From positions 62,001 to 126,000 of the forward strand of contig NZ_JACHGF010000011.1 in the NCBI RefSeq assembly GCF_014202275.1: 64,000 nucleotides of DNA, given 5' to 3'. Both the position numbers and the translations under genes were made by a program. Below are positions 14,257-32,653 of this stretch, piece after piece (position 1 is the first letter of the stretch; each line of letters begins with the position of its first letter). The stretch comes from Rhabdobacter roseus (GTDB lineage Bacteria > Bacteroidota > Bacteroidia > Cytophagales > Spirosomataceae). Under the pieces are notes generated by a model that was not told where the DNA came from, ran no database searches, and was given only the letters and a program-made list of their open reading frames with translations.

Positions 14257-14310
14257 TAATGCAAATTCAATATTTAGCGAAATTTCACTGTCAGAAAAAT
14301 TTCTTTAATT

Positions 14311-14358
14311 ATGCCAGGCTTGGTACTACTCGTTATTCTACTCGTTGTCCTCTGCTAA
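14311..14358 (+). CDS. ilv leader peptide
   Basis: A 15-codon open frame, MPGLVLLVILLVVLC then TAA. Eleven of the 15 residues are branched-chain: six Leu (TTG, CTA, CTC, CTA, CTC, CTC), four Val and one Ile, which are the products of the operon that follows. It ends one base before the antiterminator arm at 14362. The composition, position and downstream alternative hairpins are those of a classical attenuation leader: scarcity of charged Leu, Val or Ile tRNA would stall the ribosome in the run and leave the antiterminator arm free. Below the length limit of ordinary gene finding. Confidence 0.88.
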   Translation: MPGLVLLVILLVVLC

Positions 14359-14361
14359 GAG

Positions 14362-14425
14362 GTGAGTGAAACGCGGTACCTAGCTCGAACGCCTCACTCA
14401 CATACTCCTTGAGTGAGGCGTTTTT
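14362..14425 (+). promoter_or_regulatory. ilv transcription attenuator (antiterminator/terminator switch)
   Basis: GTGAGTGA (14362-14369), just after the leader stop codon, can pair with TCACTCAC (14394-14401) as an antiterminator. The same middle segment is also the left arm of a strong terminator: 14388-14400 pairs with 14410-14422 (13 bp, loop 9 nt), followed by TTTTT (14421-14425). The two structures are mutually exclusive. A ribosome finishing the leader peptide would cover the first arm and let the terminator form. ilvD starts about 92 nt further on. Confidence 0.85.
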
Positions 14426-25492: not shown

Positions 25493-26896
25493 ATGAGTTC
25501 GCAACCAACCACTCTCTTCGACAAAGTCTGGGACGCCCACGTTGTTCGTAAAATCGAGGACGGGCCGGATATCTTTTTTATCGACCGTCACTTCATCCAC
25601 GAAGTAACGAGCCCGGTGGCCTTTCTGGGCCTGGAAAGCCGGGGGGCGGGCGTTCTGTTTCCGGAACGTACCTTCGCCACCGCCGACCACAACACGCCCA
25701 CGATCAACCAGCACCTGCCCGTACAGGACCCGCTTTCGGCCAACCAGCTGAAAGCCCTGGAAACTAACTCGGCCAAGTACGGTATTTCGCACTGGGGCCT
25801 GGGCCACCACAAAAACGGGATCGTGCACGTAGTAGGGCCCGAAAACGGCATCACCCTGCCGGGCATGACCATCGTCTGCGGCGACTCGCATACCTCTACC
25901 CATGGGGCGTTCGGGGCCATTGCGTTCGGGATTGGTACTTCGGAGGTGGAGATGGTACTGGCTACGCAGTGCATCATGCAGCCCAAGCCCCAAAAAATGC
26001 GGATTACCGTCAATGGTATCCTGGGCAAAGCGGTACTTCCCAAAGACGTGATTCTGTACATCATCGCGCAGATTTCGGCCAGTGGCGCTACGGGGTACTT
26101 TGTAGAATACGCCGGGGAGGTTTTTGAAAACATGAGCATGGAAGGCCGCATGACGGTCTGTAACATGAGCATCGAAATGGGTGCGCGCGGCGGGATCATC
26201 GCCCCGGACGCCACCACGCTCGGCTACATCGAAGGCCGCGAACTAGCTCCCAAAGGCGAGGCCTGGGATACGCTTGTTGCCTACGCCCAAACGCTGAAAA
26301 CCGACGAGGACGCGACCTTCGACCTGGAATATACCTTCGACGCGGCCGACATCGAGCCGCAAATTACCTACGGCACCAACCCTGGCCTGGGCACGGGTAT
26401 TAGCCAGCATATCCCCAAAGCCGGGGACGTCAAAGACGGCGAAGCCAGCTACCAGAAATCGCTGAAGTACATGGGCTTTGAGGAAGACGAATCCATCATT
26501 GGCAAACCCGTCGACTACGTGTTTCTGGGTAGCTGTACCAACGGGCGCATCGAAGATTTCCGCGCGTTTGCGTCCATCATCAAGGGCCGTAAAAAAGCCG
26601 ACCACGTGACGGCCTGGCTGGTACCTGGCTCGCACGTCGTAGAGGCACAGATCAAGGAAGAAGGCATTTTGGATATTCTGACCGAGGCGGGTTTCCAGCT
26701 GCGCCAGCCGGGTTGCTCGGCTTGCCTGGCCATGAACGACGACAAGATCCCGACCGGCAAGTACGCCGTAAGTACCTCCAACCGCAACTTTGAAGGGCGG
26801 CAGGGCCCCGGGGCCCGCACGCTACTGGCCAGCCCGCTCGTTGCCGCCGCCGCCGCCGTAACCGGCCAGGTGACTGACCCGCGCGAGCTGCTCTAA
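25493..26896 (+). CDS. leuC: 3-isopropylmalate dehydratase large subunit
   Basis: Aconitase-family isomerase converting 2- to 3-isopropylmalate in leucine synthesis. 467 residues, normal. The [4Fe-4S] cysteines are in [13 protein letters not shown] and [13 protein letters not shown], with the substrate motif [26 protein letters not shown]. The C-terminus, [32 protein letters not shown], is characteristic. In organisms with a citramalate pathway this enzyme also isomerises citramalate, relevant to the IPMS-like gene downstream. leuD follows 103 nt later. Confidence 0.96.
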
Positions 26897-26999
26897 GTAC
26901 CTTATCCAAAGTACCTCCGGGGCGTTTTATAGAAAAAACAAAGCGGACGGGGGTACTTTTTGTTAAAAACCCAGCATTACTAAGTACCAGATCAAAACT

Positions 27000-27596
27000 A
27001 TGGCTTACGATAAATTCACCATCCTGAAAAGTACCGCCGTTCCGATGCCAATTGAGAACGTCGATACCGATCAAATCATCCCGGCCCGCTTTCTGAAGGC
27101 CACCAAACGCGAAGGCTTCGGCGACAACCTGTTCCGCGACTGGCGTTATCATCCCGACGGTAGTCCTAAGGAAGATTTTATCCTCAATAATCCCATCTAC
27201 TCCGGCAAGATCCTGGTAGGAGGTAAAAACTTCGGCAGCGGCTCCAGCCGCGAGCACGCCGCCTGGGCCATCTACGACTACGGCTTTCGCTGCGTGGTAT
27301 CCAGCTTCTTTGCGGATATCTTTAAAGGAAACTCCCTGAATATTGGCATTTTGCCGGTGCAGGTAAGCCCGGCGTTTCTGGACAAGATTTTTCTGGCCAT
27401 CGAAGCCGATCCCCAAACGGAGCTCGAAGTAAACCTTCCCGAGCAGACCATCACCCTGTTGGCGACCGGCGAGCAGGAAACCTTCGCGATCAATAGCTAC
27501 AAAAAAAATAACCTGATGAATGGCTACGACGATATTGACTATCTGCGCGCCATGAAAGAGGAAATTGCTGCCTTCGAAGCGGCCCGACCCTACTGA
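27000..27596 (+). CDS. leuD: 3-isopropylmalate dehydratase small subunit
   Basis: Swivelling-domain partner of LeuC. 198 residues with [37 protein letters not shown] and [20 protein letters not shown], all characteristic. It supplies the substrate-binding loop to the LeuC cluster. The following IPMS-like gene starts 9 nt after its stop, indicating one transcription unit. Confidence 0.96.
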
Positions 27597-27605
27597 CCCG
27601 CTGCC

Positions 27606-29177
27606 ATGCCCAAGCGTTACGTTGAAATCATGGACACGACTCTCCGCGACGGGGAGCAAACCAGCGGCGTGTCTTTTTCGGCCTCAGAGAAGCTCACCAT
27701 TGCCCAGCTACTGCTCCAGGAAGTAAAGGTAGACCGCCTCGAGATTGCCTCGGCGCGGGTGTCGGAGGGGGAATTTCAGGCCGTAAAAAAAATAACGGAC
27801 TGGGCCCAGACTACGGGCTTTCTGGAAAAGATCGAGGTACTTACCTTTGTAGATGGCGAAGCCTCCGTTAACTGGATGCTCAAGGCGGGTGCGCGCGTCA
27901 TGAACCTGCTGACCAAAGGGTCGCTGAACCACCTGACCTACCAGCTCAAAAAAACGCCCCGGCAGCACTTTGAGGACATTGCGCGGGTTATTGCGCTCGC
28001 CAGCTCCCATGGCATCAGCACCAACGTGTACCTGGAAGACTGGAGCAACGGCATGCGCAATTCACCCGGCTACGTTTTTGAATGCCTGGATTTCCTAAGT
28101 ACCCAGCCCATCCGGCGGGTACTTTTGCCCGATACGCTGGGGGTACTTACACCCGCCGAATCGTACGCTTTCGTAAAGGCGATCGTAGACAGGTACCCTG
28201 ATCAGCATTTCGACTTCCACGCCCACAACGACTACGACCTGAGCATTGCCAACGTGCTGGAAGCCGTACGCGCCGGTGCGCACGGGCTGCATCTGACCGT
28301 CAACGGCATGGGCGAGCGCGCCGGAAACGCCCCCCTGGCCAGTACCATCGCCGTACTCAATGACTTCGTGCCGGACGTCGAAACGTCCGTGGTGGAGCAA
28401 TCGCTTTATTCCGTCAGCAAGATCGTAGAAACCTTTTCGGGCATTCGGATTCCGGCCAACAAGCCCATCGTGGGCGAGAATGTCTTTACCCAAACGGCCG
28501 GTATTCACGCCGACGGCGACAAGAAAAACAACCTGTACTGCAGCCACCTCATGCCCGAGCGCTTTGGGCGGCAGCGGCTATACGCCCTGGGCAAAACCTC
28601 CGGCAAAGCCAATATTGAAAACAACCTCCGGGAACTGGGAATCACGCTTTCTGACGACGATCTCAAGAAAGTAACACAGCGGATCATTGAGCTCGGCGAC
28701 CGCAAGGAAGTTGTTACGCCCGAGGACCTGCCGTACATTATTTCCGATGTGCTGGATAGCAACACCATCGAAGAGAAGGTACTGATCCTGAACTACGTAC
28801 TGACGCACGCCAACAACCTCAAGCCTTCGGCTACCTTGCAACTCAAAATCGGTGACGCTGTTTTTGAGGAGAATGCCCAGGGCGACGGCCAGTACGACGC
28901 TTTCATGAACGCCCTCAAGAAGATTTATGCCAAGCAGCAAATCAGCCTGCCCATGCTGACCGACTACGCCGTGCGCATTCCGCCCGGCGGCCGTACCGAC
29001 GCCCTCTGCGAGACCATCATTACCTGGAATATCCAGGGCAAGGAAGTAAAAACCCGAGGACTGGATTCGGACCAGGCCGTGTCGGCCATCAAGGCAACGC
29101 AAAAAATGCTCAATTTATTAAATCAGACCCCGGAACCCACCTCCAAACCATGGCCCGAAAAGCCGGAATTGGTGTAA
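27606..29177 (+). CDS. 2-isopropylmalate/citramalate synthase-like enzyme with regulatory domain
   Basis: HMGL-type TIM-barrel acyltransferase of 523 residues. Key motifs: [21 protein letters not shown], the metal site FDFHAHNDYDLSIANVLEAV, VNGMGERAGNAPL, and GIHADGDKKNN. The C-terminal 130 residues (LPMLTDYAVRIPPGGRTDALCETIITWNI) resemble the LeuA-type dimerisation/regulatory domain. A second, shorter LeuA is encoded 2 kb downstream behind a leucine attenuator, so this one more plausibly makes citramalate (pyruvate + acetyl-CoA) for isoleucine; substrate specificity cannot be read with confidence. Alternative: a feedback-regulated isopropylmalate synthase. Nine nt after leuD; leuB follows. 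Confidence 0.85.
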   Translation: MPKRYVEIMDTTLRDGEQTSGVSFSASEKLTIAQLLLQEVKVDRLEIASARVSEGEFQAVKKITDWAQTTGFLEKIEVLTFVDGEASVNWMLKAGARVMNLLTKGSLNHLTYQLKKTPRQHFEDIARVIALASSHGISTNVYLEDWSNGMRNSPGYVFECLDFLSTQPIRRVLLPDTLGVLTPAESYAFVKAIVDRYPDQHFDFHAHNDYDLSIANVLEAVRAGAHGLHLTVNGMGERAGNAPLASTIAVLNDFVPDVETSVVEQSLYSVSKIVETFSGIRIPANKPIVGENVFTQTAGIHADGDKKNNLYCSHLMPERFGRQRLYALGKTSGKANIENNLRELGITLSDDDLKKVTQRIIELGDRKEVVTPEDLPYIISDVLDSNTIEEKVLILNYVLTHANNLKPSATLQLKIGDAVFEENAQGDGQYDAFMNALKKIYAKQQISLPMLTDYAVRIPPGGRTDALCETIITWNIQGKEVKTRGLDSDQAVSAIKATQKMLNLLNQTPEPTSKPWPEKPELV

Positions 29178-29242
29178 AGTACCCCTACCCTTTTTTTAAA
29201 TACTAACTAACTACTTTGTTTAGAGAAGTACCTTCCAAGCTT

Positions 29243-30313
29243 ATGAAGAAACATATCTTAATCGTTCCCGGTGACGGCATCGGACAGGAAGTAACCGCCG
29301 TTGGAAAAAAAGTACTCGAAAAAATTGCCGAGAAATTCAACCACGAATTTACGTACGACGAGGCCCTGATTGGCCACGAGGCCATCGAAGCCACGGGCAA
29401 TCCGCTGCCCGACGAAACCCTCGAAAAAATGCGGGCGTCGGACGCGGTACTTTTCGGCGCGGTAGGCCACCCCAAGTACGACAACGACCCCAGCGCCAAG
29501 GTACGTCCCGAGCAGGGGCTGCTCAAAATGCGGAAAGAGCTCGGCCTTTACGCCAACCTACGTCCCATTAAGCTATTTGACGAGCTGCTTTCGGCTTCGT
29601 CCATCAAGCCTGAAATCCTGCAGGGCTCCGACATTCTTTTTTTTCGGGAGCTCACCGGGGATATTTATTTTGGCGAAAAAGGCCGCAAGGACGACGGCAA
29701 CTACGCCTACGACATCGCCGCCTACAGCAAGTACGAGGTAGAGCGCATTGCCCGCCGGGCTTTTGAAGCCGCCCGAACCCGCCGCAAAAAGCTCTGCTCC
29801 GTGGATAAAGCCAATGTGCTGGAGACCAGCCGCCTGTGGCGCGAAGTAGTACAGGCCCTGGCCCCGGAGTACCCCGACGTGGAGGTAGAGCACCTCTTTG
29901 TGGATGCGGCCGCCATGATGCTGATTAAAAATCCCAAGCGCTTTGACGTCGTCGTAACGGCCAACCTTTTCGGCGACATCCTGACCGACGAAGCCAGCCA
30001 GATCGCCGGGTCCATGGGTATGTTGGCTTCGGCCTCCGTGGGCGACAGCACTGGCGTGTACGAGCCCATCCACGGCTCTGCCCACGACATCACCGGCCAG
30101 GGCGTAGCCAATCCCATGGCGTCGGTACTTTCGGCAGCGCTGCTGCTAGACATATCGTTTGGCATGAAGCAGGAAGCCGAGGCCGTCATCGCAGCCGTAG
30201 ACCAGGTACTTAAAGCAGGTTTCCGTACCGGCGACATTGCCGATGCCAGCACGCCTAAGGACATGATTTTGGGTACGGAGGCGATCGGCGAGGAGATTCT
30301 GCGCCGCCTCTAG
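29243..30313 (+). CDS. leuB: 3-isopropylmalate dehydrogenase
   Basis: NAD-dependent oxidative decarboxylation of 3-isopropylmalate. 356 residues from ATG 29243 (MKKHILIVPGDGIGQEV). Signature motifs: LLKMRKELGLYANLRPIK, ILFFRELTGDIYFGEKGR, SVDKANVLETSRLWREVV, and FGDILTDEASQIAGSMGMLASASVG, with GVYEPIHGSAHDITGQGVANP. Last gene of the leuCD-IPMS-leuB unit, followed by a stable hairpin. With citramalate-pathway enzymes it also oxidises 3-methylmalate. Confidence 0.96.
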   Translation: MKKHILIVPGDGIGQEVTAVGKKVLEKIAEKFNHEFTYDEALIGHEAIEATGNPLPDETLEKMRASDAVLFGAVGHPKYDNDPSAKVRPEQGLLKMRKELGLYANLRPIKLFDELLSASSIKPEILQGSDILFFRELTGDIYFGEKGRKDDGNYAYDIAAYSKYEVERIARRAFEAARTRRKKLCSVDKANVLETSRLWREVVQALAPEYPDVEVEHLFVDAAAMMLIKNPKRFDVVVTANLFGDILTDEASQIAGSMGMLASASVGDSTGVYEPIHGSAHDITGQGVANPMASVLSAALLLDISFGMKQEAEAVIAAVDQVLKAGFRTGDIADASTPKDMILGTEAIGEEILRRL

Positions 30314-30934: not shown

Positions 30935-31271
30935 ACGTTGAAGAGGGGGTTCAGTAAGACGGGCCACGGGCCAGCTTCTTTTACTTAAAGAAAGTACCTA
31001 GCATGTATGCTCTCTTGTTGGTTTCGATCAATGGTGGTTTTTTTTCGTTGAATGGTTAAAAGCAAGCGTTTTTTAGCCTTCCTTTTCAATTCTAAACTTT
31101 TTTATTGGTTACCATTTATTCTTTCCCATAAGGCACCTTTCCCCCAACACCCGAACGTACAAAATGCAAGTACCTCTACGTTTTCCTTGCACAAAATTTG
31201 TATAGCTCATTTCTTCGTATAACTTTGCAGAAGAAAATCGCAATGGGCGAAATTTCGCAAGCTTTATTTCC
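30935..31271. other. control region upstream of the leuA leader
   Basis: A 337-bp gap, AT-rich, with copies of the AAGTACCT octamer near 30993 and 31170 and the leuA promoter at its right end. Nothing else was recognised. Confidence 0.5.
31197..31227 (+). promoter_or_regulatory. leuA operon promoter
   Basis: TTTG (31197-31200), a 19-nt spacer and TAACTTTG (31220-31227) match the Bacteroidota promoter consensus exactly. The transcript would start near 31234, 38 nt before the leader-peptide ATG. Confidence 0.8.
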
Positions 31272-31322
31272 ATGAATTGTCCCTATCAAAGCCTACTTCT
31301 TTCGCTTCTTCGTATGCCCTGA
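31272..31322 (+). CDS. leu leader peptide
   Basis: A 16-residue open frame, MNCPYQSLLLSLLRMP then TGA. It has five leucine codons in six positions (CTA CTT CTT TCG CTT CTT). It lies about 45 nt downstream of an excellent promoter and 4 nt before the first arm of an antiterminator. This is the expected anatomy of a leucine attenuation leader controlling the leuA gene that follows. The repeated use of CTT, rather than mixed Leu codons, would make it sensitive to a single tRNA class. Confidence 0.85.
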   Translation: MNCPYQSLLLSLLRMP

Positions 31323-31326
31323 GCGC

Positions 31327-31382
31327 GAGAAAGGTATGGTTATAGCACAACAGCCCCTTTCTCACCTTGAGGAAGGGTTTTT
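31327..31382 (+). promoter_or_regulatory. leu transcription attenuator
   Basis: GAGAAAGG (31327-31334) is complementary to CCTTTCTC (31356-31363), an 8-bp antiterminator. The latter segment is also the left arm of a terminator: 31355-31363 pairs with GAGGAAGGG (31369-31377; 9 bp with one G-U), followed by TTTTT (31378-31382). The structures exclude each other, as in the ilv attenuator 17 kb upstream. leuA begins 54 nt later. Confidence 0.85.
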
Positions 31383-31436
31383 AATTTCAGGAAAAATAGT
31401 AATTTCGTAGTTCAACTTTAAATTAACGTACCCACA

Positions 31437-32591
31437 ATGAGTCAGCGAGTTTACATCTTCGACACTACATTGCGCGACGGCGAGCAAGTACCCGGCTGCC
31501 AATTGACCACGGAAGAAAAAATTATTGTGGCCCGACAGCTCGAAAAGCTAGGCGTAGACGTAATCGAAGCTGGATTCCCGGTATCGAGTCCCGGCGACTT
31601 CCGCTCGGTGGTGGAAATCTCCAAGGCCGTGCAGGAGCCCACCGTTTGCGCGCTGTCACGGGCCGTACAGGCTGACATCGACGCCGCCGCCGACGCCCTC
31701 CAGTACGCCCGGCGCGGGCGGATTCACACGGGCATTGGCTCATCCGACATTCATATACAGCATAAGTTCAATACCACCCGCGAGAAAATCATCGAGCGGG
31801 CCATCGACGCCACCAAGTACGCCCGCAAGCGCGTGGAAGACGTGGAGTTTTACTGCGAAGACGCCGGGCGCGCTGACCTGGTGTTTTTGGCGCAGCTCGT
31901 AGAGGCCGTCATCGGGGCCGGAGCTACCGTCGTGAACATTCCGGACACCACGGGCTACTGCCTACCGGACGAATACGGGGCCAAGATCAAGTACATTTTT
32001 GAGCACGTAAAGAACATCCATAAGGCTACCATCTCCATCCATTGCCACAATGACCTGGGTCTGGCTACGGCCAACTCCCTGGCCGGTATTCAGGCCGGAG
32101 CGCGCCAGGTGGAGGTGACCATCAACGGCATTGGCGAACGGGCCGGAAACACTTCGCTGGAAGAAGTGGTGATGGCGCTGAACGTACACAAGGAGCTCGG
32201 CCTGGAGACGGGCATCCACGCGCCGCTCATTTTCCCAACCAGCCAGTTGGTATCCAAAATGATGCGCATGCCTGTACAAGCCAATAAAGCCATCGTGGGC
32301 CGCAATGCCTTTGCGCACTCGTCGGGTATCCATCAGGACGGCTTCCTGAAGCATACACTGAACTACGAAATCATGAATCCGCAGGACGTAGGGGTAGACA
32401 AATCGGATATTGTCCTGACCGCCCGGAGCGGTCGCCATGCGCTCAAGCACCGGCTCGAGCTCCTGGGCTTCACCTTCGATAAGCCCACCCTGGACGACCT
32501 TTACCGTCGCTTCCTGGACGTGGCGGATGTCAAAAAAGAAGTAAACGACAAAGACCTGGTGGAGCTGGCCCGCACGGCCATAGCTGCCTAG
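31437..32591 (+). CDS. leuA: 2-isopropylmalate synthase, short form
   Basis: First committed step of leucine synthesis. The 384-residue protein contains the whole catalytic barrel ([74 protein letters not shown]) but stops before the C-terminal leucine-binding allosteric domain present in full-length (about 500-residue) enzymes. It should therefore be insensitive to classical leucine feedback, which fits transcriptional control by the leucine attenuator directly upstream. The neighbouring 523-residue paralogue keeps a regulatory domain. Followed by a 23-bp perfect hairpin. Confidence 0.94.
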
Positions 32592-32599
32592 CCACCCGG

Positions 32600-32653
32600 C
32601 CTAAAGCGCCGAAGGTACCTTGACGTGAGCCAAGGTACCTTCGGCGCTTTAGG
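32600..32653 (+). terminator. 23-bp perfect hairpin after leuA
   Basis: Arms 32600-32622 and 32631-32653 are perfectly complementary with an 8-nt loop. Each arm contains AAGGTACCTT, a form of the window's iterated GTAC motif. Strong hairpin, but without a T-run. Confidence 0.75.

Follow-up and report, generated by a model that had tools for sequence, protein, structure and literature searches.

Sequence evidence for a leucine-leader transcription attenuator and a probable second operator layer before leuA in Rhabdobacter roseus and its relatives

Transcription of leuA in Rhabdobacter roseus is very probably regulated by ribosome-mediated attenuation of the classical kind, with charged leucine tRNA as the signal, and probably by a second layer of control at an operator. 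The attenuator and the operator lie in a window of 64,000 nucleotides (the whole stretch of DNA analyzed: contig NZ_JACHGF010000011.1, positions 62,001 to 126,000), which is part of a 6.9-Mb genome. Comparisons were made within the family, represented by 36 genera in the genome collection, and a protein search covered 99 relatives, in most of which leuA was detected. As judged from sequence, the leuA element is a leader-peptide attenuator under a testable definition of that class: a short open reading frame (ORF) rich in Leu codons is present, an intrinsic terminator lies between this leader and leuA, and a mutually exclusive antiterminator is governed, in computation, by the position of the ribosome. 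The sensed amino acid also fits the gene, as LeuA makes leucine.

GENOMIC CONTEXT AND PROMOTER

The leuA gene (31437..32591, + strand) encodes a 2-isopropylmalate synthase of 384 aa, which matches NCBIfam model NF002086 with 604 bits over model positions 4-383 of 516; the end point of this LeuA coincides with the start of the C-terminal part in full-length models. Upstream of leuA are leuC, leuD, a CimA-like gene, and leuB (25493-30313), with ilvD-ilvB-ilvN-ilvC-ilvA located farther upstream. The CimA-like gene between leuD and leuB (27606-29177, 523 aa) has the Leptospira-type citramalate synthase CimA as its best model (690 bits, below the cut-off), and its product carries the LeuA allosteric domain that is apparently absent from the 384-aa LeuA. 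A connection between the C-terminal loss in LeuA and the attenuator was considered and dropped, several relatives having short LeuA frames without an attenuator. On the 3′ side of leuA, a long near-perfect inverted repeat, CTAAAGCGCCGAAGGTACCTT...AAGGTACCTTCGGCGCTTTAG, spans 32601-32652, with no T-run immediately behind it.

The window also carries an iterated heptamer, AAGTACC/GGTACTT, in 112 copies versus 7 expected (15,982 in the genome versus 1,323 for the reversed control), which resembles HIP1-like iterated motifs. It has no fixed flanks except a preferred following T or C, GGTACTT favors one reading frame in the listed genes (20/27), and its frequency is partly raised in genomes G017, G015, and G003 but in few of the other relatives. 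The segment 46024-64000 has just 3 of the 112 copies, the others being located in 1-46023; with a GC content like that of the rest, this segment may be a recently acquired island.

The predicted leuA promoter (31197..31227, + strand) is of the Bacteroidota type, composed of a -33 box TTTG, a 19-nt spacer, and the -7 box TAACTTTG, and these boxes recur before leuA in many relatives. It had been described in a first-pass annotation as an exact consensus match. The match is indeed present and unique, TTTG-N19-TANNTTTG occurring on either strand of the window only at 31197-31227, but taken alone it is weak evidence, with 0.29 matches expected and at least one found in 24/100 shuffles. A sigma-70 promoter scan gave no match, as is expected for this phylum.

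ARCHITECTURE OF THE leuA LEADER

Between the promoter and leuA lies a leader peptide ORF of 16 codons, MNCPYQSLLLSLLRMP (31272..31322 including TGA, + strand), whose five Leu codons, CTA CTT CTT CTT CTT, are exactly as first annotated, and Leu-rich leaders are found at the equivalent place in relatives. No ATG ORF with five Leu in six codons arose in 2000 dinucleotide shuffles of 31234-31436. The Leu-codon stretch (31290..31312) is assigned as strand 1, which, according to folds and to the matching of leader and strand 2 within genomes, would pair with strand 2 if the ribosome is absent. Strand 2 is the antiterminator, GAGAAAGG (31327..31334), identified from folds and from the ribosome-position model described below; its antiterminator pairing is with CCUUUCUC at 31356-31363 (-12.6 kcal/mol, z -2.0). 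Strands 3 and 4 make up an intrinsic terminator hairpin of 10 pairs, CCCTTTCTCACCTTGAGGAAGGG (31355..31377), with counterparts in 30 family genomes, and are followed by the T-run TTTTT (31378..31382); all of these elements are on the + strand. The elements of the three-arm antiterminator/terminator proposed earlier before leuA were thus recovered, and a terminator as strong was seen in 0/400 shuffles of 31234-31436. Single-sequence folding of the whole leader is unexceptional (z -1.3); an attenuator is recognized by its alternative pairings, not by a single stable fold.

The dynamics of the switch and the leucine response of the leuA attenuator can be inferred from these pairings. With ample Leu-tRNA, the ribosome would reach the leader stop and cover strand 2, leaving strands 3 and 4 to terminate transcription before leuA. 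With scarce Leu-tRNA, the ribosome would stall at the Leu codons, strands 2 and 3 would pair, the terminator would not form in time, and leuA would be transcribed. In an untranslated leader, the Leu codons of strand 1 would pair with strand 2, and the terminator would form.

RIBOSOME-POSITION MODEL AND CONSERVATION IN THE FAMILY

Ribosome position was modeled by equilibrium folding with a chosen footprint of 12 nt, a stall being represented by a ribosome on the middle Leu codon and the 2:3 pairing being counted at six or more pairs. In this folding model, the stalled ribosome permitted the 2:3 pairing in 30/30 cassettes, while with the ribosome at the stop codon the pairing was gone in 26/30 and the terminator formed. 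For the leuA cassette of the window, the antiterminator had 9 pairs in the stalled state versus 1 at the stop, and the terminator had 0 versus 10 pairs. In about two thirds of the relatives, the equilibrium favors the full terminator even when the ribosome is stalled, and a kinetic switch is therefore required there.

The strands also appear to be fitted to each other genome by genome. Over 30 cassettes, the mean strand 2-strand 3 energy was -13.2 kcal/mol within the own genome, -11.4 kcal/mol when strands were swapped between genomes (a control that is conservative because the genomes are related), and -7.9 kcal/mol with strand 2 shuffled, and 0/5000 permutations were as good as the own pairing. 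In the same 30 cassettes, strand 1, formed by the leader codons, is likewise matched to strand 2 within genomes.

A leader ORF and a terminator precede leuA in 30 of 59 family genomes, representing 18 genera, with 22-35 nt between the stop codon and the terminator; the pair was not found in the leuA upstream regions of the other 29 (about half). For G023 and G004, an ATG frame ending beside the antiterminator was used as the leader ORF. Whether close relatives retain the leader frame was a check proposed in the first-pass annotation; the closest ones do (MKPIAQNLILLLLITS, MANYLINRQNLLLLFTYS), and so do the 30 genomes. The protein sequence of the leader is free to vary (MKPIAQNLILLLLITS, MNALALNLNLLNLLIP, MVQNLPLQLLLLSLSA) and is Leu-rich in nearly all; just two Leu codons are present in the leaders of G004, G036, and G052, those of G036 and G052 having three Ile codons alongside. 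An equal layout with an unrelated stem, TTGGGTT/AACCCAA, was found in G094, from another family of the same order, and it is therefore the architecture that is kept. A strong terminator was also looked for before leuC, as the mark of an attenuator there, and was not found.

LEUCINE CODONS AND ALTERNATIVE READINGS OF THE LEADER

Across the family, CTT and CTC account for 62% of leader Leu codons versus 29% in leuA genes (Fisher test on pooled codons, 1e-13; p = 0.04 when paired by genome), CTA accounts for 19% versus 5%, and CTG and TTG are avoided in leaders. The host genome contains five tRNA-Leu genes, one each of GAG, TAA, CAA, TAG, and CAG; under standard wobble rules, tRNA-Leu(GAG) decodes both CTT and CTC. 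The leaders of five relatives have no CTY codon at all, and in the folds the CTT stretch pairs with the purine-rich antiterminator strand 2. A structural reason for CTT therefore competes with tRNA sensing, and the codon bias, having at least two possible causes, does not alone identify one tRNA.

Two other ways of reading the leader were weighed against these data. The hairpin might simply terminate an upstream transcript or a small RNA, with the leader ORF incidental, given that intergenic terminator hairpins are commonplace and that leuB is encoded upstream in the same orientation; this is very improbable, however, as the hairpin is located 1.0 kb past leuB and about 130 nt past its own promoter, and the Leu-rich frame, the spacing, and the complementarity of strand 2 recur across 18 genera. 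The joint reading of promoter and leucine-leader attenuator put forward in the first-pass annotation is supported. The same annotation had taken the mono-codon use of CTT to mean that one leucine tRNA sets the response, and here the richness in CTY codons was upheld but the narrowing to a single tRNA was not. A switch that, through its CTT run, responds specifically to the charging of tRNA-Leu(GAG) is judged rather unlikely: the CTY excess, the mostly CTT/CTC leaders of the closest relatives, and the lone tRNA-Leu(GAG) gene speak for such specificity, whereas the five CTY-free leaders, the close relative G003 with TTA/CTA/CTG/CTA, the enrichment of CTA as well, the need for CTT bases opposite strand 2, and a genome-paired p of only 0.04 speak against it.

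A TANDEM OPERATOR AT THE TRANSCRIPTION START

Promoter and attenuator had been regarded as a complete regulatory cassette; this description overlooked a putative tandem operator, GAAGAAAATCGC-N5-GCGAAATTTCGC (31230-31258), at the transcription start. Box 1, GAAGAAAATCGC (31230..31241; family consensus near GTGWAAWTACGC), is located 2 nt past the -7 box and over the likely transcription start, at a position that is fixed in 23 genomes. Box 2, GCGAAATTTCGC (31247..31258), is a perfect palindrome 17 bp from box 1 and has its sole exact copy in the 6.9-Mb genome here, most one-mismatch copies other than the one before ilvD seemingly lying, as judged from context, within coding sequence. When the leuA promoters were aligned on the -7 box, box 2 began 19 nt past it in 21/23 and 18 nt past it in 2/23, and boxes in a 12-5-12 arrangement, 17 bp apart, were present in 21/23 relatives, box 1 being the weaker. 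Two near-identical boxes at fixed spacing are what characterizes a RamB/ScfR-type operator, and overlap with the expected transcription start is a position typical of repression.

The likeness to the arrangement before ilvD, pointed out at the start, was confirmed, a cassette of the same kind being found there (14277-14425) with its own operator copy. It consists of the operator box GCGAAATTTCAC (14277..14288), which has one mismatch to box 2, is placed like it, and is conserved before ilvD in the family, a Leu/Val/Ile leader peptide ORF, MPGLVLLVILLVVLC (14311-14358, + strand), an antiterminator strand, GAGGTGAGTG (14359..14368, + strand), complementary by eye to the terminator arm, and a terminator hairpin, CGCCTCACTC...GAGTGAGGCG, plus a T-run (14390-14425, + strand). 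The operator and Leu/Val/Ile-rich leaders recur in many relatives. Genera g2 and g36 have two palindrome copies about 241 bp apart near ilvD (L116 1502 and 1743; G036:C16:91171-91425), and in L116 one of the two sits within a longer perfect palindrome.

An operator without an attenuator is found before leuA in G007, G039, G008, and G055, as well as before ilvD in several genera, and an attenuator without an operator is found in G020 and G059. Each is therefore present without the other, marking operator and attenuator as separate layers, and leuA is probably under two-layer control. The palindrome could instead be an RNA element, namely, a 5′ stem-loop of the attenuator, as it would be transcribed from a start near 31234 and its GCGA/UCGC could form a stem of four pairs. 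Such a role is improbable: the distance to the -7 box is constant (19 nt in 21/23) and that to the leader variable, the palindrome stands without an attenuator at the leuA and ilvD loci just named, and variants such as GCGAAATTTCAC disrupt the RNA stem. On spacing and on occurrence without the attenuator, a part in the attenuator RNA was rejected, and the operator as a DNA element is well supported by the alignments.

CANDIDATE REGULATOR OF THE OPERATOR

The 13-mer AGCGAAATTTCGC occurs in 72/121 family genomes, with its reversed control almost absent, and ilvD or leuA adjoins the site at 18 of 30 sampled places. In other genera, the site adjoins aceB and a divergent gene for an HTH/M78 protein, and it is also found near pckA, fbp, and the gene for a long GAPDH. 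The HTH/M78 protein, which joins an HTH to an M78/IrrE-like domain, has RamB as its best NCBIfam model, at 56 bits versus a family cut-off of 700 bits. In a test on 37 family representatives, with the site defined by at most one mismatch and A/T left free in the center, a site before ilvD or leuA was present in 31/33 representatives with the RamB-like protein versus 0/4 without it (p = 2.3e-4). Counted over 121 genomes, uncorrected for relatedness, the site was present in 71/105 with the RamB-like gene versus 1/16 without it (p = 3e-6). The losses are concentrated in two genera, so that the effective sample is smaller than these p-values suggest. The RamB-like gene of the host genome lies at G000:C2:611975-613282; the region upstream of it was checked and has no matching site.

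The second layer would consist of the tandem operator setting initiation over the transcription start via a RamB/ScfR-like regulator, a role suggested by co-occurrence only, and the hypothesis that the regulator is such a protein is placed at about even odds. Binding by another regulator, e.g., of the Lrp/AsnC type, is a strong competitor with slightly poorer prospects. In its favor are the extended sites TAGCGAAATTTCGCTA, which may resemble Lrp-type sites, the lack of a site at the host RamB-like gene, and the lack of a site before ilvD in order-level relatives that carry the regulator. Against it, the site and the RamB-like gene coincide in their presence within the family, the site lies beside the RamB-like gene, aceB, pckA, and fbp in some genera, and none of the Lrp/AsnC genes of the host genome has a site nearby, these particular genes being rejected for that reason. 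It is conceivable, at somewhat less than an even chance, that leuA and ilvD belong in this family to a RamB/ScfR-like regulon, together with genes of the glyoxylate cycle and gluconeogenesis in some genera. Branched-chain amino acid synthesis would then be gated by acyl-CoA status at initiation, via the tandem operator over the start site, and by leucine afterwards, via the attenuator, with the layers gained and lost independently.

RELATION TO KNOWN SYSTEMS AND IMPLICATIONS

Attenuation by leader peptides has been well described for Proteobacteria and Actinobacteria, and Lopatovskaya et al., as cited in PMC4833913, reportedly devoted a comparative paper to attenuation in 2010. The leuA element is like the leu leaders of Enterobacteria (leuL type; Rfam Leu_leader) in having a short Leu-rich leader, strands 1 to 4, and an intrinsic terminator before leuA, with the same inferred logic. 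It is unlike them in giving no Rfam match (searched over the window at the gathering score and over 31190-31440 up to E = 10), in its CTT/CTC codons, the E. coli leu leader having a CUA run, in preceding a lone leuA with leuCD-leuB elsewhere, and in its Bacteroidota promoter and the additional tandem operator where transcription starts.

A literature search for a leucine leader or leuA attenuator in Bacteroidota, with most subscription journals outside its scope, found nothing specific and general hints only. In Flavobacterium psychrophilum, another member of the phylum, leader-peptide attenuation has been noted, and structured 5′ regions with leader peptides lie before amino-acid operons (PMC9723704); for Bacteroides, there is a looser suggestion of leader peptides (PMC7366714). 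Unlike the F. psychrophilum study, which concerns another class and whose main text offers general clues (PMC9723704), the present analysis centers on a named gene, examines how the strands are matched, and extends across a family of another order. For the operator, ScfR-family sites are composed of two near-identical boxes, as in Paracoccus (PMC10370305), and the RamB/PrpR sites of Mycobacterium tuberculosis contain TTTGC(A/G)AA (PMC6765138). The sites described here share the two near-identical boxes, a half-site, GCGAA, that is contained in TTTGC(A/G)AA, and glyoxylate-cycle targets; they differ in box length and spacing, in targets that include ilvD and leuA, and in a regulator that only resembles RamB (56 bits versus the cut-off of 700 bits).

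The leuA cassettes represent a family-wide testable set in which the strands are matched within genomes. If the tandem operator, as a layer independent of the attenuator, and the regulator proposed for it are borne out, leucine synthesis in these bacteria would be linked to carbon state, and the two control layers would be swappable in evolution.
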